A stretch of 64,000 bases of DNA, from assembly GCA_038503065.1 (NCBI GenBank), contig JBCAMK010000019.1, forward strand, positions 992,001 through 1,056,000. The letters run 5' to 3'. Shown here piece after piece: positions 42,501 through 63,664 of this stretch (positions are counted from its first letter, which is position 1; each line of letters begins with the position of its first letter). Made by a program: the position numbers and the translations under genes. Below the pieces are notes generated by a model. That model saw nothing but the letters and a program-made list of their open reading frames with translations. It was not told the origin of the DNA and ran no database searches. This stretch comes from Paragyromitra xinjiangensis (lineage: Eukaryota; Ascomycota; Pezizomycetes; Pezizales; Discinaceae).

Positions 42501-43407
42501 AAACCTCTCCTGCGTCTGCACCAGGACCAGATGGGATCCTTTATCCTCACATACAACACGTTCATCAAGCCGCCCCCTCACTCATACCCAAAATCTTCAC
42601 AGCCGCCCTCCACTTTGGTGCCTTTCCTGATATATGGAAACAAGCAATCGTTACACCCATACCCAAATCAGGCAAAGATGACTACGCCAAACCCAATGCC
42701 TATCGGCCCATCTCACTGCTATCATGCCTTGGCAAGCTACTAGAACGCATCATTACCAGACAATTAGAACTTGCTGCAATAAATTCAGGCGCAATCAATC
42801 ATCAGCACACAGGTGGACGTACAGGAATCTCAGCAATAGACGCCCTGCAACAAATCATCACACCCTCTCAATCCTGGCTCGACACCCCTGCCACAACAGG
42901 ACACCAAAAACAACTTCGACCCTCCATCCTCACCACAGACATCGAAGGAGCATTCAACTGCGTCATCCATCAACAAATGATTGCCATTTTTCTTCACTTC
43001 AAATTCCCCACGTACCTCATACAATGGTACCGAACTTTTACTACCAACCGAACTATAGCTTTTAGATTCAACAACACCACAAGTCCAACAACATCCTTCA
43101 ACAGTGGACTCCCACAAGGATCCGCCGTCTCCTCCATTGCCTTCACTATATACAGCGCTGCCCTAGATACCGAACCTTCACCCTCCAACCTCACTTATTC
43201 CAACACTTACATTGACGATAACGCCATGCTACAAGCAAGCTTTTCGCAAAAATTCGCCACCATGACACTACAACAACGCCTAAACTCTAAAATCCAAAGA
43301 GGATCATACCTCAACATCCTCTTCTCCCCGCCAAAAACAGAACTCATGCACCTGCGACTTAGCTCCAGAGCAAAAGACCCCACACCTACCCCCATCACAC
43401 TCTATGA

Positions 43408-45704
43408 AACCGACAACAACAACGCCAAAGTGACTTTTTGGTCACAACTCCACCAGTTTTACTCCGATTGCTCTACTTTTTGATTATTCGGACTCGCCTC
43501 GCTGCCCTCGTTCGATCCTGCTATTGTACGTCTGGTTTGCTCCGGATTTGCTAAAGTTGTTATCGAATTCGCCTATTTACCCCTCACTTCCAAAACCCTC
43601 ACCAAATCTTGAGATTCTGCATCTTCTCATAACTCCACCAGTTTTCGTCCGATTAGCTCGACCCCGGGCTTTTTGGAACCGCCTCAGCGCGCCCGTTCGA
43701 TCGCCCTCTCGTTCGTTCGGATCCGACCAGAACTGCAGAAGTTCTGATCGATTTCCCATTCCCAACCGCCAGCCCTCCCCCCCAGGGCACAGCAACCACC
43801 CCCCCCACCTCCTCCTGTCGGTTCAGGACCCTCCTCCATGTCTTCCTCTTCGTCTAGAGGCAGAGGGAGAGGCAGAGGCTTCAGGTCTCCCTCTTCTGTG
43901 ACTAGTTCACCTCAAAACTCGCTCCAAACGCCATTTGGCGCCCCTACAACACCCCCAAACACCCGATTTTCGCCATTGCTCCATGGAGACCCTGAGCAAA
44001 CACCTACTCAAGCCCTGCCACTTCGCCCAGCAGTCCCCCTACCTCACTATGCCTCCCTGCCCGCCACAGAGCCTACAGACAGTGGCTCTGTCCTCCTGGA
44101 AGAGTCTGACTCTGACATGACGGACACAGAGGGACCCCTCACCTTTTCCACCACCCTACCTCCAGTCATCCAGATGGATGACAGCAACAGCAACCTAGAT
44201 CGCCTTGGTGCCATTGGTACTGGGGAGAACTACAACCCCTCCCTCTTCACAGTGACGGATGAGCAGAACAGGCTCATCAAGGCACTCACCAAACGCGTCA
44301 AGCAGCTTGAAAAAGCTATCCTCACACCACCACCAGCCCCTACCTTCCACAATGACCCAGCTCTAGTGGAAAAGGTGGCTACCCTCACCTCCAAGGTTGC
44401 AGACTTGGAACAGAAACGGACCCTCACAACCATTCTGACCTCTGCCAACCTCCCCCTACCTCCAGCAGCTGCTCCCCCGCCAGCCACCAACTCCTGGGCT
44501 CAGGTTGCCTCTAAAAGGGCTCCTAGACCCGCCAGCAAGGCCTCCAAGCCTACCAAACCACCAGCAAACCCCCCAAAACGCGACCGTACCCTCATCATCA
44601 CCAGGAATGGTCTACCCATTCCTGATGATATCACCCCACTCCTCATTCGCAATGCAGTCAATGCTGCCCTAGACAAGCCATTGATTGCAGAGGTGCGATT
44701 CACACCAGCACACCATGTGCAGCTCATTGCTGTCACTTCCACCACCTCCGACTCCCTTCTCAAGCAGAGACAAAAGCTTGAAGAAGTAGTTCGCAACACC
44801 ATCCCCAATGCCACCAGCATGGAAAAGGAAGCCATCCTTACCCAAGTTGTTGTGCACAATGTCCCCACCTCCATCCCCTCTGGCGAAGAGGGATTCCAGC
44901 AGATCAGATCTGAGGTTGAGCAGTTCAACCCAGGCACCACCCTACTTCGCGACCCTCGCTGGCTCACCAGGCCTGAGCAGAGAGAGGGAAAGCAGGCCTC
45001 CTCCATGGTCTTGACCATTGTGGGGAAACAACCTGCCACCACTGCCCTTGAGAGAGGGCTCTCACTCTTTGGACTTCGCCATAAAGTCACCAAATACCTT
45101 CGCTTCGGACCAGATACCCAATGCACTACCTGTCTGGCCTTTGGCCATCCACAACAACGCTGTACCAGCAAAACGCCTTACTGCAACATCTGTGCTGGGC
45201 CTCATACAGCATCCTCCCACTCCTGCGCAACCTCCTCTTGCACCATCAAGGGAGCTCCTTGCCTCCACACCATCATCCGTTGCAAGAACTGTGACGAACA
45301 GCATCGTGGTAACTTTTCTGGTTGCCTCAAACTCACTGAAGCTAGACTTAAGGCCAGCGAACGTCAGGATCGCATGGTTCTTTAAAGTTTCCCCCTACCT
45401 GTATTGATTTATCCAGCCCTCATGGGCCTTCGGGCTTAGTGGAGGGAGTGCTATAGGCACAAAACATGTGATGGTGAGAGAAGAATGCCCAGGGTAGTCT
45501 TGACACTGTGAGAGGGAGTCACTAGATCGGGGTATTAACACATTCATTGACGATGAGCCTAGAAGAGGCTGGGTTGGAACTGGCGGAGGATTAGTTAGTT
45601 TTGTTTTTGTTTTCTTTTATGTTCCTGTTGGGTTTTCTTCTGCTGTACGCCATATCCGTTTCGGATGCATGCGAGTATGAATAATAAATAAATAAATAAA
45701 TAAA
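43408..45704 (+). mobile_element. Element E5, complete copy in LINE B copy 3
   Basis: E5 is flanked by tcacactctatga at 43395-43407 and 45705-45717 in ORF2. The common start CCGACAAC is at 43410, the ORF at 43838-45385, the hairpin at 45654-45666, and an AAATAAATAA-type tail ends it. It is uninterrupted, 2.30 kb, and belongs to the E1/E2 subfamily. Confidence 0.92.
43838..45385 (+). CDS. E5 ORF1, intact gag-like CCHC protein
   Basis: This 515-residue ORF is intact and is the best reference for the E1/E2/E5 subfamily. It has the RGRGRGRGFRSPSS start, an acidic segment (EESDSDMTDTEG), a coiled coil (QNRLIKALTKRVKQLEKAI, then KVATLTSKVADLEQKR), a Pro/Ala linker with SWAQVASKRA, a globular part (DKPLIAEVRFTPAHHVQ; RWLTRPEQREGKQASSMV) and knuckles CTTCLAFGHPQQRC, CNICAGPHTASSHSC and CKNCDEQHRGNFSGC. 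It would bind RNA. The 3' untranslated region after it (45386-45704) carries no further ORF. Confidence 0.88.
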   Translation: MSSSSSRGRGRGRGFRSPSSVTSSPQNSLQTPFGAPTTPPNTRFSPLLHGDPEQTPTQALPLRPAVPLPHYASLPATEPTDSGSVLLEESDSDMTDTEGPLTFSTTLPPVIQMDDSNSNLDRLGAIGTGENYNPSLFTVTDEQNRLIKALTKRVKQLEKAILTPPPAPTFHNDPALVEKVATLTSKVADLEQKRTLTTILTSANLPLPPAAAPPPATNSWAQVASKRAPRPASKASKPTKPPANPPKRDRTLIITRNGLPIPDDITPLLIRNAVNAALDKPLIAEVRFTPAHHVQLIAVTSTTSDSLLKQRQKLEEVVRNTIPNATSMEKEAILTQVVVHNVPTSIPSGEEGFQQIRSEVEQFNPGTTLLRDPRWLTRPEQREGKQASSMVLTIVGKQPATTALERGLSLFGLRHKVTKYLRFGPDTQCTTCLAFGHPQQRCTSKTPYCNICAGPHTASSHSCATSSCTIKGAPCLHTIIRCKNCDEQHRGNFSGCLKLTEARLKASERQDRMVL

Positions 45705-47397: not shown

Positions 47398-49298
47398 ACT
47401 AGCTACTGAATGACACGCGTATATGAAATACATGGTCTCATCCACCGCCAACCTCAACTACCCCATAAACACAATATAACATAAAGAAAATACAAAACAT
47501 AACCATAACCGAACCAACCGAACCAACTAAAACAAAATATAATGTAAGGAAATATCATAACCGAACTTAAACCAACCGGATATAAAAGAAAAACTTCCCC
47601 CGCCCGGATTGCCTTATGATCAATTTATATCTAGCAAATTCGTATTTGATACGCCATAAAGATATTTATTTGTTGAAATAATAGCCATATTGTTTTCGCG
47701 AATAAAATGCAAAACGTCAATGTGGTTCGTGTTGAGAATAATAGCTGAATACCAATCGTTGCCCCAATCTGGGCGAGTGGTGTCGTTGAGTGGGCAAGCG
47801 AGGGCGAGATGTGGAGAGGAGCTAATGGCCCCACATTGGCATGAAAAAGGGGGTGTGAGGGGGTTTGGGTCCGCCTTGGTTTGTTGAGTGCGAAGGGTGG
47901 AAATTGCTTTTGCCTGATTTCGGCGGAGGAAGCGTACGACTTGAGGAGGATGGAGGGCAACAGGAGTTTCAGTTGTAAGTTGCCATAGTTTGAGGAGGTT
48001 GAGTTTGGGCTGGAGGCGAAGCCATCCCAGTGTGGTGCAAGTGTGTTTGCATGGTGCGAGATGAAGGCCTTGTTTGGCCATTTGATCTGCTATTTCGTTT
48101 CCGGGGATGTTTGTGTGTGATGGGGTCCAGCGGCCAAAGACCTCAGAGTTGAGGTTATTTAGTGTGGAAATGTGCGCAAGGGTGTCTTTTAGGTATTGGC
48201 GATTGGAGGTGCTGTGACCCGCAAGTGATAATAAAGCATTTTGATTATCAATGCAAAGATGGATGGTGGAATTGTCAGCAGGTAAGTTGTGAATTAGGAA
48301 ATGTAAGGCTTCTTGAATGCCATGTATTTCTGCGTCTTCGTTCTCGCATTGGTGGCCCAGGTTGCAGTTGCCCTGGTGTGAGGAGGTGGTGATGCCATAT
48401 TGTATGTGTTGGATATTCCAACCGGAGGCAGTGATGCCGTTGTCAGCGCGAGAGCCATCCGAATATAAGATCCAGGCGTCGGCTAAGCTGTGGAGCCAAT
48501 CCATGTGAGTTAAAGAAGCAGATTGTTTGGTGCCTTGAATGTGTATATGAGATGAAGCTAAAAAGGGATGGGTGGGTAGGGACAGGTCTTCGAGTGGCGC
48601 GCCAGATAGCAATCTGGCGATTAGAGAGCCAACTCGTTGGAGTCCTGTTCCTTTGAATTCGGTGGGATGAAGGTGCTGTAACAGTGTCTTGTGTAGGCAG
48701 TGTTTAGGATTGCGGAGAATGCGTAGTCCATAAAGTTGAGTACCCATGTCGAGTAGTAAGTTGAGTGGAGCTAATCCAGCTTCAGGTAGTAATTTGTTTA
48801 TAGGGGTGAATTTTGGTAGGCCAGATATTAGCCTTGCGGCGCGGTGGTATGATGGTGAAAGTCTGTCCAAAATGCTTTGTGAACCAGTCCACCATACCTC
48901 GGAGCCATATAGGGCTGCTGGGAGAATGATGGTGAGGGTGAGTGGGTGCAATAGATTGGGCGTGGGACCCTTGTCTTTGACTAGGTTGTTCACCAGGTAG
49001 AGGGAGGTTCGTAAGCGTGAAGCGGCTTGTTGGCAGTGTGAATGGAAGTTAAGTCTTTGGTCAAGTAATATGCCTAAGACCTTGATGTGAGGGAGGGGAG
49101 GAATTTCTTTATTGAATAGCGATATAGTTTGGGTTGGTGGGTTACTGGTGAAGGGAGTGATTAGGTGAATTAGTTCCGTTTTTGGTTCGGAGAATTTGAT
49201 GTTTAAGTGGGAAGCTCGTTTTTCCTTCGCCTTGTGTCTCTCTGCGAGGCGTATGGTGGCAAAGGCAGGTTTCTTGCTCATTTGTAGGGCAGTGTCGT

Positions 49299-49682
49299 TG
49301 TGGTGGGGCACACGGGAGGTGGAAGAAAGCGATGGATAGTCACGTGCACAGTCACGTGTATAAGGGTTAGGGGTATTGACAGCGGAGGATTTCTATTACT
49401 GTTCAACATTTCCTGTCGATTCACTACTCTATTCTTCTCTAACTATCTATCTACCTATCCATTTTGTATCATATTCCTTTTGTGGCGGGCTCTTGCCTTG
49501 CCTAATTCGTATCGAATATATCCTTCCTATTCGCTCGATTCCACGCCTAATAATCCACATATATGTGCCTCGCTATAGGACATCGAAGTCCGTGTCGACG
49601 CAGTCTCTTCTTCACAGTGCGAAGGCAGCGAATATCAGATCTCTGCGTCAAACTGGCAGAGTCTCCTACGCACTCGCCCACA
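49299..49682 (+). repeat. Gypsy-2 5' LTR
   Basis: It is 384 bases with canonical TG...CA ends and a copy of the CGTGTCGACGCAG palindrome variant at about 49588-49605. Just inside it, TGGTCCCTTCGACCGG (49684 on) starts with TGG, as a tRNA primer-binding site would; the tRNA was not identified. Confidence 0.9.
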
Positions 49683-50237
49683 ATGGTCCCTTCGACCGGA
49701 GAGATTGATACGCTAGGCCTAGGCACGAAGAAAAGCAGTCACGCAGCGAATCGCACACACACGCACACACGGAAGGCACGGGATTTAGAGAGGCTATTCG
49801 GCAGAGAATTCCCACGGCGGAATAGACTGTGGAGCCGCTATAGGACACTAGAAGAGGTTTCTTCGTCAGAGAATTCCCTGTGCGGAATAGGCTGCGAAGT
49901 TACGGGATATAGAGCAATTAAGGCGGCAGAGAAATTCCGCAGCGGATTAGACTGTGCCTATTGCGGCAGAGGTCGGCTTGCTAAGAGCGACGGACTGCGC
50001 AAAGAAAAATTTGTGGCAGGGAAGTCTTCTGAGGAAGGGCTAGGCTGTACAACTAATACGGGATCTCGGAGATTCAGCTGCCGAATCCGCAAGAAGGCAG
50101 CAGACGCCACGGGAGACGTATACCCCCCCAATGCCCCGCGGAAAGGCAAGAAGAAAGATTCAGACTTCGTACAATTCACGGCAGAATTCGCAGCATTCAC
50201 AGTATTCACCGTATTCGCCCTATCAATCGCAGTAAGC
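49683..50237 (+). other. Gypsy-2 leader with three direct repeats
   Basis: The frame is open here but the content is not gag-like. A repeated unit, (G)GCAGAGAATTCC...GCGGAATAGACTG with variations, occurs at 49800-49829, 49865-49894 and 49924-49953. It could be an RNA packaging or structural signal; this is inference. Confidence 0.55.
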
Positions 50238-51260
50238 ATGTCGACTCCACGGTCCACAGTCAACTCCACGCCAACGGCAGGTACGCCAATTACCACTGCC
50301 TCTGCAGATTTGCTTATCGAAGGTCTTCGGAAGCAATTGACGCATATGCCCTTTCCTGGAACCCACGGTGCCCCGCACTTCGACGGAAACGATGCCACGG
50401 ATTTCCTAGAGCATTATGAGCTTCTATACGAAGAATTCGGAGAGTCGGAGAAGGCGGCTGTGAAGAAACTCCCTCTCTATTGCGTCAGCTCTATTGGTGC
50501 CACAATTCGTTATTTGCAGGGATATGTGGATGGAGACTGGCAAGTGTTGCGGAAGGAGATTCTGAAGGAATATAGAGCGCAGGATACGAAACAGCAGATG
50601 TATACGGTAAGATTCCTGGAAGAACTGACTGCCACACAGAAGAAGAAAACAGGCGATATACGCCCCTTTGTGCGTACGTTTACAGCAGTTTCCACTAGTC
50701 TTAAGACCACAGGCATGCTTTCGGAATATCAGGAGATTCAGCTGTTTCTAGGAGGGCTGCAATTAGATCTTGCCAGGAAGCTGATTATCAAATTCAAATT
50801 GGATGTCAACGTGCCCAGCTCTTTTCAAGGCAAATATGCCTTGATTAGGAAAGAGGCTCAGGATTATTGCTTAGGCACGCTTCGCACAGAGGAATTGATG
50901 AAGAAGGGTGAGTTTTCTTCCGAGGTGCTTATTGACCAGCTTTTAGCGCAGGAAACGAAGCCGAAGCCTTCAGTATCAGCTAGTTTCGGAGGCTTGCAGC
51001 CGGTGCAGTCAACGCAGATTGCGCAGACTATGCAGCCAGCTCAACGCCAAAGCCATAGTATTGACGTCACAAGCGCAATTGACGACATTTCGAAGCGCAT
51101 GGAAGCCATGGTTTTACGCCAACAGGCGCAATTTATGGAGAGTTTTAGCAGAGCCAACGTCGGCGCCAGAGCGCCTCCGCCGCAAGCCTACAACACGCCA
51201 GGTCCTGCTTCGGGAGCAAATGCAATTCCGCTTCGGAATCCGCAGCCAGCTCAGCAGTAG
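50238..51260 (+). CDS. Gypsy-2 gag
   Basis: From ATG 50238 (MSTPRSTVNSTP) this 340-residue ORF ends at TAG 51258-51260. The frame is also open upstream into the LTR, but that part looks non-coding, so the internal ATG is preferred. The core (GAPHFDGNDATDFLEHYELLYEEFG; WQVLRKEILKEYRAQDTKQQ; GDIRPFVRTFTAVSTSLK) is a typical gypsy capsid region. No zinc knuckle is visible before the stop. The protease ORF is in the same frame after the TAG, so this codon is either a readthrough site or a CAG/TGG-to-TAG mutation. Confidence 0.85.
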   Translation: MSTPRSTVNSTPTAGTPITTASADLLIEGLRKQLTHMPFPGTHGAPHFDGNDATDFLEHYELLYEEFGESEKAAVKKLPLYCVSSIGATIRYLQGYVDGDWQVLRKEILKEYRAQDTKQQMYTVRFLEELTATQKKKTGDIRPFVRTFTAVSTSLKTTGMLSEYQEIQLFLGGLQLDLARKLIIKFKLDVNVPSSFQGKYALIRKEAQDYCLGTLRTEELMKKGEFSSEVLIDQLLAQETKPKPSVSASFGGLQPVQSTQIAQTMQPAQRQSHSIDVTSAIDDISKRMEAMVLRQQAQFMESFSRANVGARAPPPQAYNTPGPASGANAIPLRNPQPAQQ

Positions 51261-52214
51261 GCGAATTGGTATGTTTCTGCAGTCAAACCGGCGCGTGTGG
51301 AAAAGTGCAGGGCGCCAGCAAAGAAGGAAAAGGTGGAAGATCTCAGGAAGAGAATTGAGAGGCAGGAAGGGTTGCCAAATGCTCGGGCGCCCAGGCCTAG
51401 AGCATATCCTCCAGTAGAGACTGTGGAAGTGGAGATGCAGGAAGATAAGCCTACGAATAAGCCCACGAATAAGCCTGAAAAGAAGGTCGTCGCACCACGC
51501 AGAGCCCTTAGAGATGATGCCATAGGCGCCCCCTCCGAAGAAGAGCTTTTCCACAGATTAGCAACGGAAAAGTCGATCAATATCAGCATTTCGGAATTAG
51601 TCTCTATTTCTCCTCCCTTCAAGAAATATTTATACGGCAGAGGCGTGCCGCCAGCTGCGAAGGTCTCTAAAGCGCAGGCATCTCCACGCGACTCCCAGGC
51701 TCGGAGAATTAGACATCAAGTCGAATACGCTGCTGAGTCAGGATTAATTCCCATTAGTATTAACGGCGTTTTGCTGCAGCCAACAGGGGATAATGGATCA
51801 GAAATCAATCGAATGGGTTGGTCGGAATTCGAGAGTTTGAATTTGCCATACGATGACCAGGTGGATTGGACCATGACTGGAATTACTGGAGATTCCACAC
51901 CTCTGACCTGCTGTATTCATGAAGCGCCCGTTAGTGTGGGAGGTGCCGTGGTTTATACGCCAATATTCGCATCTCCAGGAATGGAAGGCGAATTCGTATT
52001 AGGGCGCCCATTTGAACGCGCTGCCTTACTAAAGTGGACGAATAAGGACGACGGCTCAATGTGGGGCACGATTTGGTCCTCTGATCGCCTAAAGAAAGCC
52101 AAATTCATGGCTGTTCCGCCTGAAGGATATGCGCGCACTTCAGTAAGGGAAGCAAAGGGGCAGTGGATGCGGAGGAGGCGTGAGCAGAGCTCGGGAAATG
52201 GGAGATCTCAGTAA
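51261..52214 (+). CDS. Gypsy-2 protease region, in frame with gag after a TAG
   Basis: The open frame continues in phase with gag and has its first ATG at 51297. The N-terminal part is charged (KKEKVEDLRKRIERQEG) and later shows PISINGVLLQPTGDNGSEINRMG, which aligns in position with the active-site segment of retropepsins, often DPGSEIN in related fungal elements. Here the Asp-(Thr/Ser/Pro)-Gly triplet reads Asp-Asn-Gly, so activity is doubtful. The segment ending VLGRPFERAALLKW fits the protease C-terminus. The frame ends at TAA 52212-52214, inside the frameshift stem-loop. Confidence 0.7.
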   Translation, partial: ANWYVSAVKPARVEKCRAPAKKEKVEDLRKRIERQEGLPNARAPRPRAYPPVETVEVEMQEDKPTNKPTNKPEKKVVAPRRALRDDAIGAPSEEELFHRLATEKSINISISELVSISPPFKKYLYGRGVPPAAKVSKAQASPRDSQARRIRHQVEYAAESGLIPISINGVLLQPTGDNGSEINRMGWSEFESLNLPYDDQVDWTMTGITGDSTPLTCCIHEAPVSVGGAVVYTPIFASPGMEGEFVLGRPFERAALLKWTNKDDGSMWGTIWSSDRLKKAKFMAVPPEGYARTSVREAKGQWMRRRREQSSGNGRSQ

Positions 52215-52235
52215 GCGCGGAGGTGCTTACTGAGA
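52193..52235 (+). promoter_or_regulatory. Predicted -1 frameshift signal between protease and pol of gypsy-2
   Basis: The codons TCG GGA AAT contain the heptamer GGGAAAT (52193-52199) in the X XXY YYZ phase. After a 6-base spacer a perfect 11-bp stem, TCTCAGTAAGC (52206-52216) with GCTTACTGAGA (52225-52235), closes an 8-base loop. The protease stop TAA lies in the stem. Pol is in the -1 frame. Confidence 0.75.
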
Positions 52236-55200
52236 AGAGGCGGCGGAAACCTCCGGAGGAAGTGGTCGGAAGAGTGGCGGAAGTGGTGGAAGAAGTGGGG
52301 GGTGTGGTCGGAAGAGCGCAGGGGACTCCGCGTCGACGCGGAGTCTTGTGAGGTGCGGAAAAAGAGGTGCGGATGCGGCGCTGTATGGCAGTTTGGAATG
52401 AAATTCAGCGAGCGGGAAGTGGAGTTAGCAGCAGGAGGCTGTATAAGAATAAGAAGGAGAAGGTGCGCCCGCAGAACGTCAAAGGGGATGGCGGCGCTGC
52501 AGAAGGAAATCCGAATTGGAAGCAGGATTGCCTGAAGGAAGAAAAGAGGCGAGGGCTGGATAAGCCCGTTGGCCCTTTCGATCACATCCTTACGCCCAAA
52601 TTCAGCAGTGTTCCACGAGGGTCTCGTCTCACGAAAGAAAGAATAGCGGAAATGGATATAGGGCACCTTCAGCCAAAAGAACGAGAGCTTTTGATGGAAA
52701 TGCTGTACAATAGGGAGGCTGCTGTGGCATTCGAATTCACAGAAATTGGCTTATTCAAGTCGGAAGTTGAGCCTCCACACGTAATTCGGACGATTCCACA
52801 CGTGCCTTGGCAGGAAGCTCCCTTCAAGACACCCAGAGCCCTGGAAGGGGAGGTTATTGAAATCCTGAAGGCGCGGATGGCAGGAGGCACTCTAGAGCGC
52901 TGCCGCGGACCGTATCGAAATCCTTGGTTTCTAGTAAAGAAAAAGCAGGGCGGGCATCGATTGGTCGCCTCTTTCACTAAAGCCAACAGCCATACGATAT
53001 TAGATGCGGCACTGCCTCCTAGGGTTGACGAATTCAGCGAAGAATTCGCTGGAATGGCAATAGCCTTGATTATAGATCTATTCTCCGGCTACAACCAGGT
53101 CGATTTAGCGGAAGAAAGCAGAGATATGACTGCTATTCAGACACCTTTAGGCCTGCTTCGGTATACTTGAATGGTGCAAGGAGGCACGAATTCAGTGCAG
53201 GCATTTCAGCGAATCAATTCCAAAGCGCAGCATGACAATATTCCGGAACGCTGCAGAGTCTTTCTCGACGATGTGGGTGTAAAAGAGCCAACTTCGCGGT
53301 ATGATGATGAGGAAATAAGCCCTGGAATTCGAAGGTTCGTACAAGAGCATATCGTCAATTTGGACCGAGTCCTAGCAGATTACGAAAGGGCAGGCGCCAC
53401 AGTGGCGGGAATTAAATCTTTTTGGTGCAAGCCTGGAATCAAGATCGTGGGATTCGTTTGTACGGAAGAAGGGCGATTTCCTGATGCAAAGAAAGTGGAA
53501 AAGATCGTACTTTGGCCTGCCTGCGATTCAGTTACGGAAGTCCGAGCCTTCCTAGGAGTTGCCACCTATTATAGGATTTGGATCGAAGGATTTGCGATTA
53601 TCGCCGCGCCGTTATTCTTCCTGCAGCGAAAAGGGGTGGTTTTCGTATGGGCGGAAGAGCAGGAGGAAGCAATGGAAACGATCAAAAAGGCACTGACTAC
53701 TGCACCAGCGCTGGCTACACCACAATATGGTCCTTTGGCAGGCCTGCTGATTTTAGGAGTGGATGCCGGAGGAGAAGGTTGGGGCGCAGTGTTGATGCAG
53801 TTGCTGGGAGATATAAGGCATCCTTGCAGGTATGAGAGCGGGTTGTGGGCGCCTGCAGAGAGGCAGTATGATGCGGGGAAGAAAGAGTGCAAAGGACTGC
53901 TTAAAGCGCTGAAGAAGATGCACTTTTGGCTCTATGGAGTTAGATTCCGTGTGGAAATCGACGCCCGTACGCTGGTTCACCAATTTAATCTTCCTGCCAA
54001 TGATCTTCCAGGCGCAATGGTCACCCGTTGGATTGCGTGGATTCGCCTCTTTGATTTCGATGTGGTCCACGTCCCAGGAAAGCAGCATACTGCAGCAGAT
54101 GGACTATCGAGGCGTAAGGGGACTGAAGAGGATGTGGCGGAAGCAGAGGCGGAAGATGTGGAGGAATTAGAGGAATTCCTCGATGATCAACTATTCGCCT
54201 GCCGGGTAACCGCAGGAGAGTCCGCGTCGACGCGAGGTCCTGTTAATCCTTTTGTATGCTTAGCCAAAGGAGAGTATAGTGGGCGTTGGCAGCAGATTGG
54301 TGAATTCCTGGAATCTCTAACTATGCCGGAGGACCTCTCGGAGAAGCAGCGGAAGGCGTTTAGGCGAGAAGCAACCAAATTCCTAATTCGAGACGGGCAT
54401 CTATTCCGGAGAGGTCGTGAGAATCAGCCGCCAAAGCGAGTGATATGCCATGGACCAGAAAAGCAACAAATCCTGAAGGATCTCCACGACGAATCAGGGC
54501 ATAGAGGCAGAGAAGGCACGTTTAAGAAGATTTCTCAACGCTTTTGGTGGCGTGAACTAGCCAAGGATGTGGAGGAATTCGTTTGGACCTGCGAGCAATG
54601 CCAACTGCGAGCCTCGGCCAGATATCCTGACGAATTACACCCTACATTTGGCACTTCGCTATTCGAGAAGGTCTGTGTGGATATCGTGCATATGCCTGCT
54701 GGAAGTGATCGAAATCGGTATCTAGTTCTCGCTAGAGATGATTTCTCAGGCTGGGCGGAAGGGCGTGCTTTGACTAGAGGGAGCTCGGAGAAAGTGGCGG
54801 ATTTCCTATTCCAGGAGGTGATTTCGCGATTCGGATGTCCTAGGAAGATTGTGGTGGATGGAGGGCCAGAGAATAAGGCATTTACGGAGCGCCTGTGCAA
54901 TCGGTATAATATCAACAGGAAGGTCGTTTCCGCATATCATCCGCAGGCAAATGGACTGGTCGAGCGTGGGCATCAGCAAATAGTGGATGCTTTGCAGAAG
55001 ATCTCCTAACAACCGAAAGATTGGCCTAATCATCTCCACTCTGTGCTTTGGGCTGATCGAATTACGGTCAGAAGATCCACAGGAAAGGCGCCTTTTGAGC
55101 TCGTTTTTGGTTGGCAGTGTGTGCTTCCTGTGGAAATAACCTTGAATTCGTGGGGCAGTATTGAGTGGCGGGATATCCACTCTAGGGCGGATTTATTGGC

Positions 55201-55771
55201 AGCTCGAGCCAGGCAATTGGAAATGCGGGATGAAGATATCGAGGAGGCGGCAATTCGGCTGAGAGAAAGCAGGTCGGAGAATAAGCGGTATTTCGACTCC
55301 CACAGGAGAAAACGGCCTAATTCACAGACTTTGAGCGTTGGAGATCTCGTGCTTCTCCACAATACGAAGCTGGAAAAGCAGTGGAGTGATAAGCTGGCGA
55401 ATAGATGGCGTGGACCCTTTCGAATTCGTGAAATATCTCCTGTAGGCACTGTGGTTTTGGAGGAGCTTGATGGCACGCTTTTAGACGGTACTACGCCTCC
55501 AGATCGTGTTAAACGCTTCTTTCAACGCGCAGGGGAAATCGCAGAGGAATTCGCAGAGGATCTCGCTGAAGACCTCGAAGGGGGTCTCGCCGAAGATCTC
55601 GCAGAGGAGTCCGCTGAAAAGTTAGGAGAGGAGGACGCGGAGGTGTCCGCGTCGACGCGGGAACTGCCAGAGGAGGCTGAAGCTGTGGAAATGGAGGAAG
55701 CTGTTTCTGTGGTTGATGGTAAGCGTGTGAAGCCTAAGAAAGACTGGGGCTTCTACGTGCAGTTGCCTTAA
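52214..55771 (+). pseudogene. Gypsy-2 pol: reverse transcriptase, RNase H, integrase, with three stops
   Basis: One frame carries all of pol: RT (LVASFTKANSHTI, LIIDLFSGYNQ, catalytic FLDD in RVFLDDVGV), RNase H (LGVDAGGEGWGAVL), and integrase with an HHCC finger (HDESGHRGREGTF...CEQCQL), DDE residues in VDIVHMP, VDGGPENK and NGLVERGH, and a C-terminal GPF module (NRWRGPFRIREI). No chromodomain follows. In-frame stops are TGA 52349-52351, TGA 53168-53170 (in place of a Trp after LLRYT) and TAA 55007-55009 (QKIS*QPKDW). The copy cannot make full pol without suppression. An acidic tail with SASTR precedes the final stop. Confidence 0.88.
52324..52345 (+). repeat. Perfect 22-base palindrome (core TCCGCGTCGACGCGGA)
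   Basis: GACTCCGCGTC|GACGCGGAGTC is its own reverse complement. It lies between protease and RT. Variants with the same TCCGCGTCGACGC core or a close relative occur at 49588-49605, 54218-54240, 55645-55662, 57388-57411, 59438-59463 and 59981-60006, all in gypsy-2 and none elsewhere in the window. Confidence 0.9.
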
Positions 55772-56482
55772 AATACCACTAAAGGGGGGTCCCTTACGAG
55801 TCTCTTTTGTATCGTTTCTTTGGCTCTTACTCGTTGTTTCTTCGTTTCTTGCTATATTCCTTTGTGTATTCCTTTTGCTACTATTCGTCGCTTCTTTCGT
55901 ATATTCCTCGTCAATTCGTCAGTTGATTCGTTTCTATTTCCCTGTATTTCCTTCGTATACTCCTTCGTCGTTTCCTTCGTATCTATTCGACTATTCCTCG
56001 TCAACTCGTCGTTTCTTTCATATATTTATCTGTATTTCCTTCTTCTATTCCTCAGTCAATTCCTGTTTAATTCCTTCGGATATCTATGTTTCTATTAGCT
56101 GTATTTTCATCTATATACCTGTATTTGGCGGATTTAGTGTATTTTCCTATGTTTTAGTGGAAGAGGTGTATTTGCGGTGGTCGGGAGTTGAAATAAGGTT
56201 GGGGCTCTGCGGGAATCGCCGGCGGAATAGGGCTTAGGGCTATGACGCAGAGGTATCAGAAACGCCATGACCTCTTCTTTATTAGGAGGGGAGGGGGAAG
56301 CAAACCTGCTTCCTAGGACTAATCCCTTACATCTCTCGCCTAAAGGAAGGATCTCGTCGAAAGCCTTCACTGCCAGTTTGATCCCTCGATATCAAGTTGA
56401 CCCTCGCTATCAAGCTGGCCCTCGACGCATATATATCAGCGCTTTCAAGTTGGGCACCATTTCTTTGTTCTACTACGTCATC
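55772..56482 (+). other. Gypsy-2 spacer between pol and accessory ORF, with TATA-like box
   Basis: The first 330 bases are a pyrimidine-rich, TTCGT/TTCCT-repetitive tract with no convincing gene. The rest leads to the accessory ORF. CATATATATC at 56428-56437 lies about 46 bases before ATG 56483 and could be a TATA box for separate transcription. The frame is open from 56267, but that N-terminus looks like translated leader. Confidence 0.5.
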
Positions 56483-59400
56483 ATGAAACAGCAGCGCGCC
56501 ATGTTTACTCCCATAAATGAGCCGGCTGGCCCCAGTACTCCAGAGGGCAGAAAAGCGAGAGGCAGCAGCAAATCAGAGTCGCCGAATACAGTCAAGAAAA
56601 TGGTACACAGAGCGCCAAAAACCTCAGGCCATACGGGCACCAACGAAATCGTCGAGATTATGAGGGAGAGTGTGCTGCAGCAGCGCGCCAAACATGGCCT
56701 GCGCAGCCTAATCGAAAAGACCATGGCAGCCCACAAAGACCCGGTATCACGAGCTGCGGTTGCTAAGGACGCCCTGGAGGTGTTTGCAGAAGCGCGGGAG
56801 GTTTCGGATGAAGGAATCTCGAGGATTTGGGCGGATTATGTGGAGAAAGAAGGGCTATGGGATCAGTTTGGTGGAGAAGAGGCGTTTAGGGCTATGATGG
56901 ACTATGATAATGTGATTGCGCCGGTGCAAGAGCGTCATAGAGCCACAGATGGCAGGAAGGAGAGGGCGAGGAAGTTGATTTGTGAGAAGTGGGGCGACCA
57001 ATGGGAGGAGGAGTTTGATCCACAAGAGTACCGCCTGCGCCAATTCTCAGAGCATTTCCTACGTCAATTAGCGGCAATTGCTCGAGATGGGTGGTCAATG
57101 AGCCAAGCCTGGAAGGCGCTGGATGCAGGCTATCGAATGCGCCTGCAGGATCGAACCTCTGGCCAACAGAAAGCCTTGGTATTCATGCCTAAAGATGTGG
57201 CATATGCCAAGGAATGGTTAACGAAGGCAGGAGAGGGGAAGGAAACGAAAGAGGAGGTTCGGGATGAGGATTTGGTGTTGGCGTGGCCTGTGGAAGTTAG
57301 GCCGAAGCAGATTAAGCCAAAGGCTGCTAAGAAGGGGAAGTCGCTGGAGAGAGTGGTGGAGGAAGTGGAGAGTGGGGCGGAAGATCAGGACTCCGCGTCG
57401 ACGCAGACTCCTCGCTTGGTGCCGGAGGAGGATGAGGTGGTTGGTAAGGCTGTGGAGGCGCAAGCGCAGCGCCAATTGGAAAAAGGAAAGGGGAAGGAAG
57501 TGGCGGAAGAAGAAGCGGAAGAGGTGCAGAAAGGTGTGGAATTGGAAGAGGAAGAGGAAGAGGATATCCATAAGTCTGAAGCATGTGGTTGTGGAGGATA
57601 TCTCTCCAAGGCATGGGTTTCTAATCTGCGCAAATATCGAAGTGCAGAGGTGGTACCGCTTGCCTCGCAGGGCAAATATCTACTGGATGGCGTGGAGGCA
57701 GGGCTTGATAATCTGTGCTGGGAGCACTTACAGCGGCTGGCATCGTACGTTGGCCTGTATGTCAAGCGCCTGAACCGCGCGGAGATGACGCTGCGCCTGC
57801 AGCACATCCACAGGCAGTGGGATTCAATAGGGAATCTTCACGCTGCCGCAGCGACTTATGGCTGGTTTAGGAAAGGAGCGAGGGCTAGAGTGGAGGCGGA
57901 CGATTTGGGATCTTTGCTGTGGAAGCCAATTCCGTGGGAACTTCCGCAGTTTGATAGAGGGGAAATCTTTGCGCGCTTTGGCAGTCAGGAGGCTTGGGAT
58001 GCGTTTCTGGAGAAAGGCAATTGCGTGGTTCCGGCGTTTAGGTGGTTGACGGAGGAAACGGAGCTTTGGGCTAAGATCTCGGAGGAATTCGACCTATATC
58101 TCCACCATCAACGGAGTGATTCAACGGGCTGGCTGCGGAATTGCTATCATTCCGTATTACAGCAGGCAATTAGGCAAGACCCCGTGTATTACGTTTTGGT
58201 GTTGGCTGCGAGGTCGGACCGCGCCTATCGTATGCTGGCATTTCCTCACTATGCCAAGTTTTCGTTGCCTGGAGATTATACGCAATTCCGCCATATAGAT
58301 CAGAATCCTCGGAAGGCTCTAGATACGGGCGTGGGAGTGGATCACATCCAGACCTCACTCTCGCTGGATCAGGAGATCCCGGAAGGCTGTACCGCGGTCG
58401 TCGAAGGCTTCCAGAATCACCTCGGGGATTGGTGGGCTCGTGTGGAAGCGCGTGGAGATGCCAAAGACGGCAACTCTTTCCGAACCACTAAAACGTATCT
58501 GCAGGAGGATGAAGCTTCGTTTGGCAAGGAAACGAATATCGTCTGCGCGCCTGGAGATCTCCGAATTACGCTGCCGCATCTAATTCACGGGGCAACTGCT
58601 GGCGCCAAGGATAAGGCAATTCTGCAGCGAAGAACGGTGAATAATTGGCCCACAGCCATCCAGGGAGACGGAGAAGCCATGGAATTCCTGGAGATGGGCT
58701 CACGTGCCGATATCGCCAAAGCACATCGTTCGCTGACCGTACTGCCGCGGAATCCTACTGGGCAAATCAATGCCCATAGCCGCCCTGAAGCACGTTTTGC
58801 GAGTACTCCGGAGGTCCGAGGCGTGTGGGGAATTGGAGATGCGCTGTTGGGATTGGTGGATTGGGAGTCGGCTCGTGTGCGTTGGGAGTTGGAAATCTTG
58901 CTGGGGGCAGATGAGCGGAAGGCGTGGAAATTGGTGAGAAAGGTGCGGAGGAAGTTGAGGGAGGCTATGTGGGAGGGGTATAAGGTCCAGGAGTGGGCGG
59001 AGAGGCGAGATTTCGGCCCGAACTCCTATTTCCACGCCAGAGATACGGGCACTTGGGAACCTCCCATGCGAATTACCAAGGAAAGCAAGGAGTCGTTGCT
59101 GCGTGGAGGTTATTCGCTGGCAGGATTTGGCTCGGATGTGGAATCGGAAGTGGAGGTGGAGTCGGAAGTAGAGGTGGAGTCTCCTATTGGGGAGGAGTTA
59201 GATGGTGTGGAGGATTCGGAGGTGGAATTGGGCTCTCCTATTAGGGAGGAGTTAGAGGTGGAAAAGGAAATAGAGCCCGAATTGGAGGACTCGGAGAAGG
59301 GATTGGAGGAATTGGAGGATCCGCCGGTTGATGTCGCCGCCGCAGCTGCTGTTGCTGCTAAGGATTCGTCTGCTGCTGACGTTGCCCCGCCTGCTGCTAA

Positions 59401-59533
59401 TGAGGGTATGCCTCCTCCGGAACCTTGCGTTTTGGCAGAAGACTCCGCGTCGACGCAGTCTCCTGCTAAGCGGAAGCTTTCTACGGCGTCGGAAGGGAAG
59501 AAGAAGCGACGGAGGAAGCGGATGAATTGGTAG
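56483..59533 (+). CDS. Gypsy-2 accessory ORF, candidate 2OG-Fe(II) dioxygenase-like nuclear protein
   Basis: This intact ORF gives 1016 residues from ATG 56483 (MKQQRAMFTPINEP); an in-frame ATG at 56267 would add 72. The N-terminal third is helical and charged, followed by an acidic tract. A later region shows the order expected for a double-stranded beta-helix oxygenase: FRHIDQN with His604-x-Asp606, IQTSLSLDQEIPEGC, then APGDLRITLPHLIHG with distal His702 (or His699) and Arg716/717 in QRRTVNNW. HxD...H binds Fe(II) and the Arg would bind 2-oxoglutarate. The C-terminus has acidic repeats (SEVEVE) and a basic KKKRRRKR tail resembling a nuclear localisation signal. Substrate unknown. It could also be an unrelated fold. 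Confidence 0.6.
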   Translation: MKQQRAMFTPINEPAGPSTPEGRKARGSSKSESPNTVKKMVHRAPKTSGHTGTNEIVEIMRESVLQQRAKHGLRSLIEKTMAAHKDPVSRAAVAKDALEVFAEAREVSDEGISRIWADYVEKEGLWDQFGGEEAFRAMMDYDNVIAPVQERHRATDGRKERARKLICEKWGDQWEEEFDPQEYRLRQFSEHFLRQLAAIARDGWSMSQAWKALDAGYRMRLQDRTSGQQKALVFMPKDVAYAKEWLTKAGEGKETKEEVRDEDLVLAWPVEVRPKQIKPKAAKKGKSLERVVEEVESGAEDQDSASTQTPRLVPEEDEVVGKAVEAQAQRQLEKGKGKEVAEEEAEEVQKGVELEEEEEEDIHKSEACGCGGYLSKAWVSNLRKYRSAEVVPLASQGKYLLDGVEAGLDNLCWEHLQRLASYVGLYVKRLNRAEMTLRLQHIHRQWDSIGNLHAAAATYGWFRKGARARVEADDLGSLLWKPIPWELPQFDRGEIFARFGSQEAWDAFLEKGNCVVPAFRWLTEETELWAKISEEFDLYLHHQRSDSTGWLRNCYHSVLQQAIRQDPVYYVLVLAARSDRAYRMLAFPHYAKFSLPGDYTQFRHIDQNPRKALDTGVGVDHIQTSLSLDQEIPEGCTAVVEGFQNHLGDWWARVEARGDAKDGNSFRTTKTYLQEDEASFGKETNIVCAPGDLRITLPHLIHGATAGAKDKAILQRRTVNNWPTAIQGDGEAMEFLEMGSRADIAKAHRSLTVLPRNPTGQINAHSRPEARFASTPEVRGVWGIGDALLGLVDWESARVRWELEILLGADERKAWKLVRKVRRKLREAMWEGYKVQEWAERRDFGPNSYFHARDTGTWEPPMRITKESKESLLRGGYSLAGFGSDVESEVEVESEVEVESPIGEELDGVEDSEVELGSPIREELEVEKEIEPELEDSEKGLEELEDPPVDVAAAAAVAAKDSSAADVAPPAANEGMPPPEPCVLAEDSASTQSPAKRKLSTASEGKKKRRRKRMNW

Positions 59534-59694
59534 GGGTGCGGAGTCTTAGGAGGAGAGGTTTCTTCGGTCTGTTTTCTCGTTTCGTTGGCTGTTTCTCGTG
59601 TTTCCTACGTATAGATTAGCATATGATTCCTTTGTTTTCTCTGTTTTGGTAGGGGGTTAATGGCCAGGGGACGGCCATTGTAGGAGGGGAGGAT
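59534..59694 (+). promoter_or_regulatory. Gypsy-2 3' non-coding end with polypurine tract
   Basis: After the accessory ORF stop there is no further gene. GGAGGGGAGGA ends just before the 3' LTR (59684-59694 region) and fits the plus-strand primer. Confidence 0.65.
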
Positions 59695-60078
59695 TGTGGT
59701 GGGGCGCATGGGAGGTGGAAGAAAGCGATGGATAGTCACGTGCGCAGTCACGTGTATAAGGGTTAGGGGTATTGACAGCGGAGGATTTCTATTACTGTTC
59801 AACATTTCCTGTCGATTCACTACTCTATTCTTCTCTATCTATCTATCTACCTATCCATTTTGTATCGTATTCCTTTTGTGGCGGGCTCTTGCCTTGCCTA
59901 ATTCGTATTGAATATATCCTTCCTGTTCGCTCGATTCCACGCCTAATAATCCACATATATGTGCCTCGCTATAGGACATCGAAGTCTGCGTCGACGCAGT
60001 CTCTTCTTCACAGCGCGAAGGCAGCGAAAATCAGATCTCTGCGTCAAACTGGCAGAGTCTCCAACGCACTCGCCCACA
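59695..60078 (+). repeat. Gypsy-2 3' LTR
   Basis: It is 384 bases, TGTGGTGG...CGCCCACA, and pairs with 49299-49682. The palindrome copy here reads TCTGCGTCGACGCAG, a more symmetrical variant than the one in the 5' LTR. Confidence 0.9.
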
Positions 60079-62137
60079 TCGTCATCTATATAGATGGTGG
60101 AAATTTCAGAAGGGTGTGGGTTGAGGGGGTCCAATGCTGCAGCATATATGACGAAGGTGATAGATGAAAGGGGGGAGCCTTGGGGAAGGCCCACTGTTAG
60201 GGGTTGAGGTGCTTCCAGTTCATTATTGATCCGGAAGGCGAGTGTGCGGTTGGAAGTGAAACTTTGCATCCATTTGATGCACCATTGGGGAAAAGTGTAG
60301 TGTTCCAGAATTCTAATGAGGTGGGGATGTGAGATGCAGTGGAATGCGCCATCAATGTCCGTCACTAGAATGGAAGGGCGGGAGGGACGTTTTATGGCTC
60401 TTTTATCGTTGTGTGGGACAGGTATTAGTAATTGCCTTTGTGCCGGTGTGAGGATGAGGTGGAGGGAATCAGTGGCGGAAACGCCAGTTCTTGCTCCTGT
60501 GTGGTGTGGTTGAATTGCGCCATTTATTGTTGCACAAGTTTTGAGTTTTCTGGCGACAATTTTCTCCAGAAGTTTGCCAAAGCAAGAGAGTAGTGAAACG
60601 GGATGGTAGCTTTTGGGGGATGAATAATCCGCTTTGTTCGATTTGGGGATAGGAACACAATGGGTTATTTTCCAAGATGTTGGCATGATCCCTAAGCGCA
60701 GAAGATTGTTGAAGAGAGAAGTGAGGATGGAGGGACGGGCACGATGTACCTCCCTGAGTGTGATGTAATTGATCCCATCCGGACCGACTGCGGTGCGTAT
60801 GTTGGATTTTTGAAGAAGGGATTCAATTTCCTTTTCTGTAACTAGAAAAGGGAGGAATTCGGTACTGGTGGAGGGAGGAGGCAAGAAATTTGGGGGGAAA
60901 TCAGGTGGGGTGGGTTGTGGGGGAAAGAAGGTGCGACGAAAGGCTTTGCCAATTTCTTCGTTACTTTCTTGCTTTTCAATTGGAGGGATGTTGGGCTTAT
61001 TGCGTGCAGTGCTCCTGTTCATGAGATTCCAGGCGGAGCTGGGGGTTATGTCCTTAAGGGTGCGGTGCCAATGGTCCCATTTGGCTAGCATGATTTCAGT
61101 TTTGTATTCTTTCCTTGTGGAGTTGGCGAGGGTTCGCCAGTGAGGAAGGGCATTGGGTTTCCGTGCTTGAGTTTCGGCCCATGAGAGTTTTCTTTTTAGG
61201 GATTTGAGATTGGGTGTCCACCAGGATTTGGAGTATGGTCGAGGTTTGGACAGGGGTACTGTTGATTCTATGGCCAGGTTAATGGTGTTTGTGATGAGCG
61301 TGAGGGTGGAATTGGCTTTCTCTTTGTTGGAGTAGTTGAAGGGAATGGCTGCTTCCTGGATAATGTTATGGAAAAGAGGCCAATTTGTTTTGGAATATAG
61401 CCGTCGACTGGAATATTCTGGAGGATGAATGTAGAGTGTGGTGTGTAGGGAAACATGGTCGGAGTTGTGTGGACAATTGGGGGGGGCTGACCAAGGTCCG
61501 CAGGTGTCAGTGAAGCCTCTTACCATGGTGAGGTCGACGATGCTGGGTCTTTGTCCATTTCTGGGGAAGTGGGTGAAGATTCCTGGTTTGTTGAGGAGGC
61601 GGAAATTGTTGGTATCGAGCCAATTTATGATTTGTTCCGTTAATGCAATGCGGTGCGAGAATAGGTGTTGATAGCTTTCGGAGATGGGACCATACCACCA
61701 AGGGTGGTGTAGGTTGAAGTCCCCTGCTAGGATTGTGTTTTGATGAAAATGATGAAAAAGGAGCGGAAGATGGTGATTGTTGGCGCTACTGCGAGGTTGT
61801 ATGTAGATGTTGCAGATCTCGAATGTGAGATGAGGAATCTTAATGAGAATAGAAATTATATTGGGATTGGGTGAAAGTGTGGTAATTATTTTTTTGTTTT
61901 TTAGATTTTTCTTGATATAAATAATAACTTTGGGTGACGGGGAAGGGTAATATGCGTCCGCAGTTCTGGAATTGGGTGGGAGTGTGTTATGGTCGAGCCA
62001 TGGTTCTTGTAGCATAAGGATGAGGATGTGTTGGGAATGGTCAAAGTGTGAAATGGCTGAGAGAGTGGAGGCCTGTCCTTTGGCGCAGTTCAGCTGCTGC
62101 ACCATGGCTATGCCTGTTGTGAGAGGTTGTGTCTCCA

Positions 62138-63664
62138 TTAAGCGTTGGTATTGTTAATTCGGGAGGATTTGAGGCTCTCAGTGAGCTTAGTGTATGCGAT
62201 GCAGACTTTGCGTTCGTAGGCTTTGTGGCCTTGATTGCAGTTGGCACAGCGGATGGGTGGGTGGGTGCATTTTGTGCCAGTTGGGCAGCCTGCTGTAGCG
62301 CAAGGGTGCTTGATGGTTTCGTGGGCTTCTGCGCAAATTGCGCATTTGAAGTCTTTTTTGCAGGTTTGTTGGTGATGTCCGAATTCTTGGCATTTACGGC
62401 ATTGGGTGGTGGGAGAAACGGCAATGTACTCCTGTATGCGGCAGAAAGAGTTGAAGAGTGGGATTTGGTGGAGACCAAGGGTTTCCATGGTGAATTTTTG
62501 GGGGAGGGCAATGACGATGGCGGAGTGGGTCTTGCTGGCTCTTGCTTCTGGGGTGGTGAGCCATCTGGGGACTTGGGCGAGGGTGAAAGTGGGGACTGAA
62601 ATGGCCATTTGTTCTGCTACCTCCGTCATGGTTGCTTTGGTAGGGATGCCATGAATGATGAATTTGGACCATTTAGAATTAGGTCGAGCTTCGGAGAGAG
62701 GGATTTGTAGCAGGGTGCAAGCTGTTTCGATCTCTTTGGAGTAGGCTGAGCATATTTGTTCAGCGGATTCGTCGGGGCGTGTGGTGAGCACAAAGTTGTG
62801 TCTTGCAGTCTTAGTGCAGATGAGGATTGAAGTATTGCGTGGGGCGAGTTCCTTGTTTATGGCGGCGAGTAAGGAATTGTTGGTGAGGGCTGGGGGGAGG
62901 TCGCCTGAGGTTTCCAAGATGATTTGACGGTTTATGGCCGTGAACTGTGGTTGGAATAGTTTGGGGGGGAGGGCCTTCTTCTACTTGTTGCCCTTGTTGA
63001 CTTTGGTGAATGGGTCTGCGGGAGCGTTGGCTGCTTGAGCATAGGTCATGGGTTTGCCATTGTTTAGCAGGGGGACCTGGGGTTTTTGGGCTGTTTGGGG
63101 TGGCTTTTGCTGTTGGTTGCTGGCAGGTGCGGAGGTGCGGGCAGGTAGGGAGGTATTTTTATCGATGGTTTGAAGTGATCTGGCCATGTTGTTGAGGGTG
63201 GTGGAGAGTTTTCCGACCATTTCTTGAAGGATCTTAGTTTGATCCGTGAGCCTGAGGATGTCGTTTTCCTGCATGGCTACTTTTGCGAGAAGGAGGGTGT
63301 TGTTTTCCTCCGTTTGTGAGTTGAGGCGAGCAAAGCTGGATTTCAGGAGCCAGGTTGTAAATTGCTCAGTGTTGCCTTCATCAGGGATTTCAGGCATGTA
63401 GTCCTCGGTGGCCGAGAAGTCGCGAAGCCAGTTTGGGGTGGAGTCGTCGGGGAGTTCGTGCATCAAAGCTTCGTCTTGATACTGTGAGTCGGTGGTGAGG
63501 CCTTGAGGGCCGGTGTCAAAGAGGGACTGTGCAGTGGAGGGTCCAGGTTGAGCCATCTTAGTGGGTGATCCTGAGCGAGCAGGAGCTGGTGAGGGGTTGG
63601 AGAGGGTTCTTTTCTTGCCGATGAGGGGGAGAGTGAAGTTGGTGCCAAAGGTCACCAGCTTCAT
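62138..63664 (-). pseudogene. LINE C ORF1, gag-like CCHC protein with one TAG
   Basis: The frame runs from ATG 63664 (MKLVTFGTNF; an in-frame ATG at 63556 is an alternative, and the frame is open upstream to about 63877) to the stop at 62140-62138. A single TAG at 62983-62981 follows KVNKGNK. Before it lie a Pro/Ser-rich start and a coiled coil (KVAMQENDILRLTDQTKILQEMVGKL). After it come the globular part (NSKWSKFIIHGIP; VPRWLTTPEARASKTHS) and knuckles CRKCQEFGHHQQTC and CAICAEAHETIKHPC. With the TAG read through it would match LINE ORF1 proteins. The stop overlaps the ORF2 ATG as TAATG. Confidence 0.85.

Follow-up and report, generated by a model that had tools for sequence, protein, structure and literature searches.

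The question raised by this locus is whether a fungal retrotransposon carries an oxygenase gene of its own. We analyzed a 64,000-nucleotide stretch of the Paragyromitra xinjiangensis genome (the window; contig C19:992001-1056000, and all positions below are those of the window unless a contig is named) and searched the whole assembly of 48.2 Mb in 22 contigs for related copies. The window holds a complete-looking long terminal repeat (LTR) element of 10,780 bp at 49299-60078, which carries an extra open reading frame (ORF) downstream of the integrase and upstream of the 3' LTR. This frame, at 56267-59533 on the plus strand, is open over 1088 codons. A preliminary description of this DNA had placed a large ORF on the same strand between the integrase and the 3' LTR of a gypsy-type element and had noticed in it the residue spacing of a 2-oxoglutarate (2OG)-Fe(II) dioxygenase. 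The frame, the LTRs and the target site duplication bore out the first part, and we found that the extra ORF is a genuine, regular gene of a Ty3/gypsy-type family. As to the second part, we hold with moderate confidence that the ORF is a working gene of the element and that its product combines a conserved N-terminal region, a divergent PhyH-like Fe(II)/2OG oxygenase domain and a tail resembling a nuclear localization signal (NLS).

The ORF lies within the element, enclosed by the LTRs, the target site duplication, the primer binding site and the polypurine tract. The features of the element are as follows.

49295..49298 (left) and 60079-60082 (right), no strand: target site duplication TCGT, from the sequence
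49299..49682, plus strand: 5' LTR of 384 bp, TG...CA, matching the 3' LTR at 373 of 385 aligned bases in a self-comparison
49563..51260, plus strand: gag-like open frame, with a Retrotrans_gag match (E 0.098) under the Pfam cut-off
49684..49702, plus strand: putative primer binding site, starting with TGG one base past the 5' LTR, from the sequence
51297..52214, plus strand: tentative protease-like frame, with an Asp_protease_2 match (E 0.27) under the Pfam cut-off
52367..55771, plus strand: reverse transcriptase (RT), RNase H and integrase, from Pfam matches, in a single reading frame with two in-frame stops in this copy
56483..59533, plus strand: extra ORF of 1016 amino acids with M73 as its likely start, placed by the indel pattern around codon 73
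59681..59692, plus strand: putative polypurine tract adjoining the 3' LTR, from the sequence
59695..60078, plus strand: 3' LTR of 384 bp, TG...CA, from the self-comparison with the 5' LTR

The two LTRs differ by 12 mismatches in 384 bp (97% identity). Because the first 40 codons of the gag-like frame fall within the 5' LTR, its true start probably lies later than 49563. In pol, the matches to RT_RNaseH_2 (E 2.8e-19), RT_RNaseH (2.7e-15), Integrase_H2C2 (3.7e-18) and rve (1e-9; residues 499-591 of the frame 53171-55009) exceeded the Pfam cut-offs, and that to RVT_1 (E 0.0055) stayed under its cut-off. The domains follow each other in the order RT, RNase H and integrase, as in Ty3/gypsy elements, and we class the element as Ty3/gypsy-type on this order together with the LTRs, target site duplication, primer binding site and polypurine tract. 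About 500 pyrimidine-rich bases separate pol from the extra frame. The element is inserted in a minus-strand long interspersed nuclear element (LINE), which it splits into the pieces 47620-49311 and 59943-62138; when the flanks were joined by script, the LINE regained an uninterrupted frame of 1249 codons.

The extra ORF has the properties of a gene. Its translation most likely starts at M73 (56483) because indels keep the frame only after codon 73: relative to the window ORF, those in seven further full-length copies were multiples of three in 44 of 44 cases after this codon and in 2 of 16 upstream of it (an artefact of 1,494 nt at an alignment end was excluded, and an indel common to several copies was counted in each). 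From M73, which was residue 1 of the preliminary description, no stop occurs in seven of the eight full-length copies including that of the window, and the remaining copy has one at codon 883. In the genome search, every one of the 19 pol loci assigned to the family by an identity of at least 72% had the extra ORF on the same strand within 5 kb. Such a pol was found upstream at 19 of 23 extra-ORF loci, the other four being two longer pieces and two short fragments. Both totals come from the best-scoring candidates, so that the family has at least these numbers of pol and ORF loci.

The ORF is also under strong purifying selection, as a regular gene of the element would be. We pooled Nei-Gojobori counts over the 28 pairs of eight copies, which share history and are not independent, and obtained a ratio of nonsynonymous to synonymous differences per site (pN/pS) of 0.115 for codons 73-1087. 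By residues, the ratio was 0.050 for 125-345, 0.164 for the linker 346-545, 0.067 for the oxygenase domain (555-800), 0.120 for 801-838, 0.112 for 839-935 and 0.262 for the tail. Synonymous divergence (dS) between the copies ranged from 0.02 to 0.31 and was mostly 0.2-0.3. Among the copies L005, L007 and L008, where dS is very low, pairwise domain ratios lay between 0.51 and 1.03, which is what decay following insertion should produce. Selection on the ORF had been suspected from its intactness beside a decayed pol with three stops. The count is roughly right for the window copy, in which two in-frame stops interrupt the RT-integrase reading frame (its open pieces end at 53170 and at 55009), and further stops close the gag and protease frames. 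The corresponding frames are open over about 1,190-1,210 codons in other copies. Since pol has a pN/pS of 0.032 across the family (six copies, picked among the best matches), it is at least as constrained as the ORF, and the contrast between an intact ORF and a decayed pol is a peculiarity of the window copy. C-to-T rates per site among the copies were 0.016 at CpA, 0.016 at CpC, 0.037 at CpG and 0.041 at CpT, with no CpA excess as in classical repeat-induced point mutation; codon bias was uncontrolled in this count, and we made no use of it.

We then asked what the ORF encodes. Its regions, numbered from the first codon of the open frame, are these.

56639..57301, plus strand: conserved N-terminal region, residues 125-345, aligned with the Maublancomyces gigas protein P0001 (see below), with no Pfam match over the cut-off
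57983..58612, plus strand: PhyH-like 2OG-oxygenase domain, residues 573-782 (hhalign), from profile matches
58292..58300, plus strand: HxD motif, H676 and D678, aligned with HqD in the PhyH model
58586..58588, plus strand: distal His, H774, aligned with the corresponding His in the PhyH model
58628..58633, plus strand: R788/R789, candidate 2-oxoglutarate-binding Arg, near the PhyH Arg in the global hhalign alignment
58781..59071, plus strand: conserved C-terminal region, residues 839-935, aligned with P0001
59468..59521, plus strand: basic NLS-like tail, residues 1068-1085, with KKKRRRKR identical in eight of eight copies

To the eye, residues at about 470-515 looked SAP-like, a reading that we dropped, as a Pfam scan of residues 441-544 lent it no support. 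The residues named in the preliminary description (604/606, 699/702 and 716/717) are H676/D678, H771/H774 and R788/R789 in this numbering, and they match the pattern of a metal triad HxD...H with a downstream Arg that marks the 2OG-Fe(II) superfamily. All 15 stop-free copies retain H676, D678, H774 and R789, and 14 of them retain R788. This conservation is weak evidence, as 232 of 271 domain positions are also invariant among these copies, and residue spacing alone would be weak evidence as well.

Stronger evidence came from profile comparisons. We built a PhyH profile from 26 diverse bacterial PhyH proteins (30 loci, four of which were left out for a wrong frame). By hmmsearch, residues 555-812 matched it with 16.5 bits over 575-779 (E 2e-7 for one comparison), a score reached by none of 1000 shuffles, the largest of which gave 8.5 bits in one run and 4.5 in another. 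Only three of 196 real protein tiles outscored the ORF domain, all of them PhyH loci of the same genome (two overlapping, on contig C7), and the next-scoring tiles (14.0, 12.2 and 11.5 bits) were loci of another 2OG family, PF13640. With hhalign, the ORF family matched the same profile with a probability of 72.6 and a score of 38.3 over 194 columns (residues 573-782), compared with a maximum of 19.7 in 25 column shuffles; the global score was 26.0 against a maximum of 7.6. In the alignment, H676-I-D678 matched the HqD of the model and H774 its distal His. The profile tests raise the oxygenase reading above chance, and on these comparisons the ORF very probably contains a 2OG-fold domain. We call this domain PhyH-like, and not a member of PF05721, because it does not reach the curated Pfam score of that family.

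Several observations weigh against a PhyH-like oxygenase. PhyH was picked for testing after the resemblance in motif order had been spotted by eye. No Pfam family matched the ORF at E<=1, nor the domain and P0001 at E<=10, and for the ORF there was no NCBIfam match and no convincing PDB sequence match. The two AlphaFold models had a predicted local distance difference test score (pLDDT) of 38.8 (12 sequences) and 33.8 (3 sequences) and showed no strands; they are too poor to use, and the double-stranded beta-helix that a structure prediction was to reveal was neither seen nor refuted. Against a narrow PhyH set of 28, hhalign gave at best 23.6, with shuffles at 21.4 for 95% and 26.2 for the largest; this comparison was negative with the two shorter queries and borderline with the longest. 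Of the 26 proteins, a profile of the six from a narrow PhyH group did not match the window domain, and one of the other 20 gave 15.3 bits for the window domain and 12.8 for P0001. When random halves were taken instead, the six resulting profiles scored 1.3, 5.7, 6.2, 6.9, 8.9 and 10.7 bits. In the reverse search, a PhyH protein ranked first among 193 (9.6 bits), followed by a TET protein (4.7) and background (4.0). On average, the 26 PhyH proteins scored -3.97 compared with -3.95 for the background, which is no group difference. Finally, the sole homologue outside the genome has QxN in place of HxD, so that activity need not be general across homologues.

This homologue, P0001, is a predicted hypothetical protein (Q9L58_008678) of M. 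gigas (Pezizales), 40% identical in an alignment of 843 columns that covers the N-terminal region, the domain and the C-terminal region of the ORF. It keeps the distal His and both Arg residues and differs from the ORF product in its QxN and in having no basic tail. P0001 was the only relative found among the candidates scored from 5.8 billion proteins, two of the searches having scored the best 7,996 and 7,995 candidates by common words. The viral contigs and prokaryote genomes searched yielded no relative, and six-frame searches of the P. xinjiangensis genome revealed no separate host homologue of the domain. A recent capture, which the preliminary description had considered, finds no support in view of a 40% identical homologue in another fungus and copies that are mostly at a dS of 0.2-0.3. 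We also observed that C9:2004544-2005008 (plus strand), within a 310-codon open frame, weakly matches the N-terminal region of P0001 (residues 87-243; E 0.01, 25% identity); it is possibly a relative from the host or from another element.

The QxN of P0001 bears on a first alternative, a catalytically dead PhyH-derived fold with a role in binding or structure, such as an accessory nucleocapsid or a chromatin tether, with selection acting on the fold and its surfaces. A protein that retains the distal His and the Arg residues yet lacks HxD speaks for it, as does an N-terminal region at least as constrained as the domain (0.050 vs 0.067). On the other hand, the missing HxD could mean that P0001 is itself a decayed copy, or that the enzyme is not essential. 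Within the family, where the check on His and Asp conservation held in contrast to the single outside homologue, the three predicted metal ligands are invariant in every stop-free copy, an argument weakened by the general invariance of the domain. We regard a dead fold as rather unlikely and lean moderately toward an active enzyme.

According to a second alternative, the ORF encodes no oxygenase at all but an unrelated, retrotransposon-specific accessory protein, and both the HxD...H...R spacing and the PhyH similarity are fortuitous. The missing curated family match, the unusable fold models and the weak reverse search and jackknife all agree with it, whereas a collinear match over about 200 residues, obtained by two controlled methods with the catalytic columns in register, makes such a coincidence improbable.

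A third alternative, which takes up the TET/JBP link of the preliminary description, is a TET/JBP-type DNA oxygenase captured by the retrotransposon, whose substrate would be 5-methylcytosine, as has been suggested for those of fungal DNA transposons. In its favor, TET/JBP genes of Pezizomycetes travel on DNA transposons (PMC12730594), and this genome contains eight Tet_JBP (PF12851) matches at E<=10, two of them over the cut-off. The ORF itself did not join them: Pfam scans gave no PF12851 match, a TET profile built from the same genome scored -1.2 bits, no lower than which 47 of 1000 shuffles came in one run and 38 in another, and hhalign gave 20.2 against a shuffle maximum of 20.1 locally and 4.2 against 7.5 globally. 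The proposed TET/JBP link was thus not upheld, and we consider this origin very improbable. The eight genomic matches (L043-L050, on C6, C15, C1, C12, C13, C8, C15 and C9) include the closely similar groups L045/L046 and L047/L048/L049, which suggests that some are borne by mobile elements. Two other oxygenase families were tried and rejected. For AlkB (PF13532) there was no Pfam match, a six-protein profile scored -1.9 bits with 242 of 1000 shuffles as high, and for P4H-like proteins (PF13640) a nine-protein profile scored -1.8 bits with 404 of 1000 shuffles as high; hhalign stayed within the shuffles in both cases. Lastly, LTR elements commonly capture host sequence, but passive transduction of a host gene fragment that does nothing for the element is scarcely credible for an ORF present at all 19 pol loci of the family, with only in-frame indels after codon 73, strong purifying selection over a dS of mostly 0.2-0.3 and no separate host homologue in the six-frame searches.

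Returning to the PhyH-like oxygenase, we propose how it could serve the element. The protein would be produced together with or after Gag-Pol and would enter the nucleus via its basic tail; the KKKRRRKR motif, which corresponds to the basic C-terminus of the preliminary description, suggests a nuclear role. H676, D678 and H774 would hold Fe(II), and R788 or R789 would hold 2-oxoglutarate. The enzyme would then hydroxylate or demethylate a partner in chromatin, in silencing or bound to the element, to the benefit of the element. In the nucleus, a retrotransposon could gain by acting on silencing, on chromatin or on its own integration complex. The substrates of known PhyH enzymes are mainly small molecules, and we know of no such enzyme whose target is a nucleic acid or a chromatin protein. 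Action of the ORF protein on nucleic acid or protein of the nucleus or of the element is offered only tentatively, and the full proposal, in which a fungal LTR lineage recruited a PhyH-like oxygenase that enters the nucleus and modifies nucleic acid or a chromatin protein against silencing or for integration, is speculative and, taken as a whole, unlikely. Direct testing is possible, as the predicted catalytic residues can be mutated singly in a laboratory host.

Some further observations concern the element and the rest of the window. The palindrome GCGTCGACGC occurs six times in the element (10-bp starts at 52330, 54224, 55649, 57395, 59447 and 59988) and is absent from the remaining 53,220 bases of the window. 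Two of the sites lie in the extra ORF and one each in the protease-RT gap, the RNase H-integrase linker, the integrase tail and the 3' LTR, and the 5' LTR carries the variant GTGTCGACGC at 49592. At four coding places, GCGTCGACGC encodes SAST with identical codons. The 20-mer around it was found at 23 places in the genome with at most one mismatch, 22 of which are inside the spans of family copies (two by position alone). The palindrome could be a binding site for a protein of the element. Elsewhere in the window, a second gypsy-type pol at about 13250-14863 on the minus strand (C19:1005250-1006863) is 27% identical to that of the element and belongs to a multicopy family, and the region 40000-45703 contains repeat blocks in two or three copies that are 67-96% alike and start 1148 or about 3320 bases apart.

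Mobile elements with an oxygenase of their own are a natural probe of host silencing, and the present family can be set beside several known systems. With PhyH (PF05721), the ORF shares a collinear profile match with HxD and the distal His in register, and it differs from that family in being missed by Pfam scans and in having additional N- and C-terminal regions. If the PhyH-like assignment is true, a third branch of the superfamily besides TET/JBP and AlkB has been recruited independently by mobile elements, and it would point to an as yet unrecognized substrate within the life cycle of the element. Among the open-licence PMC papers that the searches listed, we found no PhyH-like oxygenase in any retrotransposon. 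LTR elements with their own 2OG-type oxygenase are already known from orchids: Ty3/Gypsy elements of Phalaenopsis, 25 kb long and standing beside Ogre, encode in ORF2 a protein of 565 amino acids with a C-terminal AlkB-type 2-oxoglutarate-dependent dioxygenase domain (PF13532) that has N6-methyladenosine (m6A) RNA demethylase activity in vitro (PMC9289625). The orchid elements resemble ours in being gypsy elements with a separate extra ORF and a 2OG domain behind an N-terminal extension; they are plant elements with an AlkB domain, whereas ours is a fungal element of 10.8 kb with a PhyH-like domain that the AlkB profile did not match. In fungi, Pezizomycetes included, DNA transposons and Helitrons carry TET/JBP genes (PMC12730594). 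These are likewise fungal mobile elements with a 2OG oxygenase gene of their own, but they are DNA transposons and Helitrons with the TET/JBP type, while the present one is an LTR element whose oxygenase-like domain is not TET/JBP by sequence. To judge from the open-licence papers searched, an LTR element with its own 2OG-type oxygenase has a precedent in the orchid AlkB elements, and the PhyH-like type in P. xinjiangensis appears to be new.

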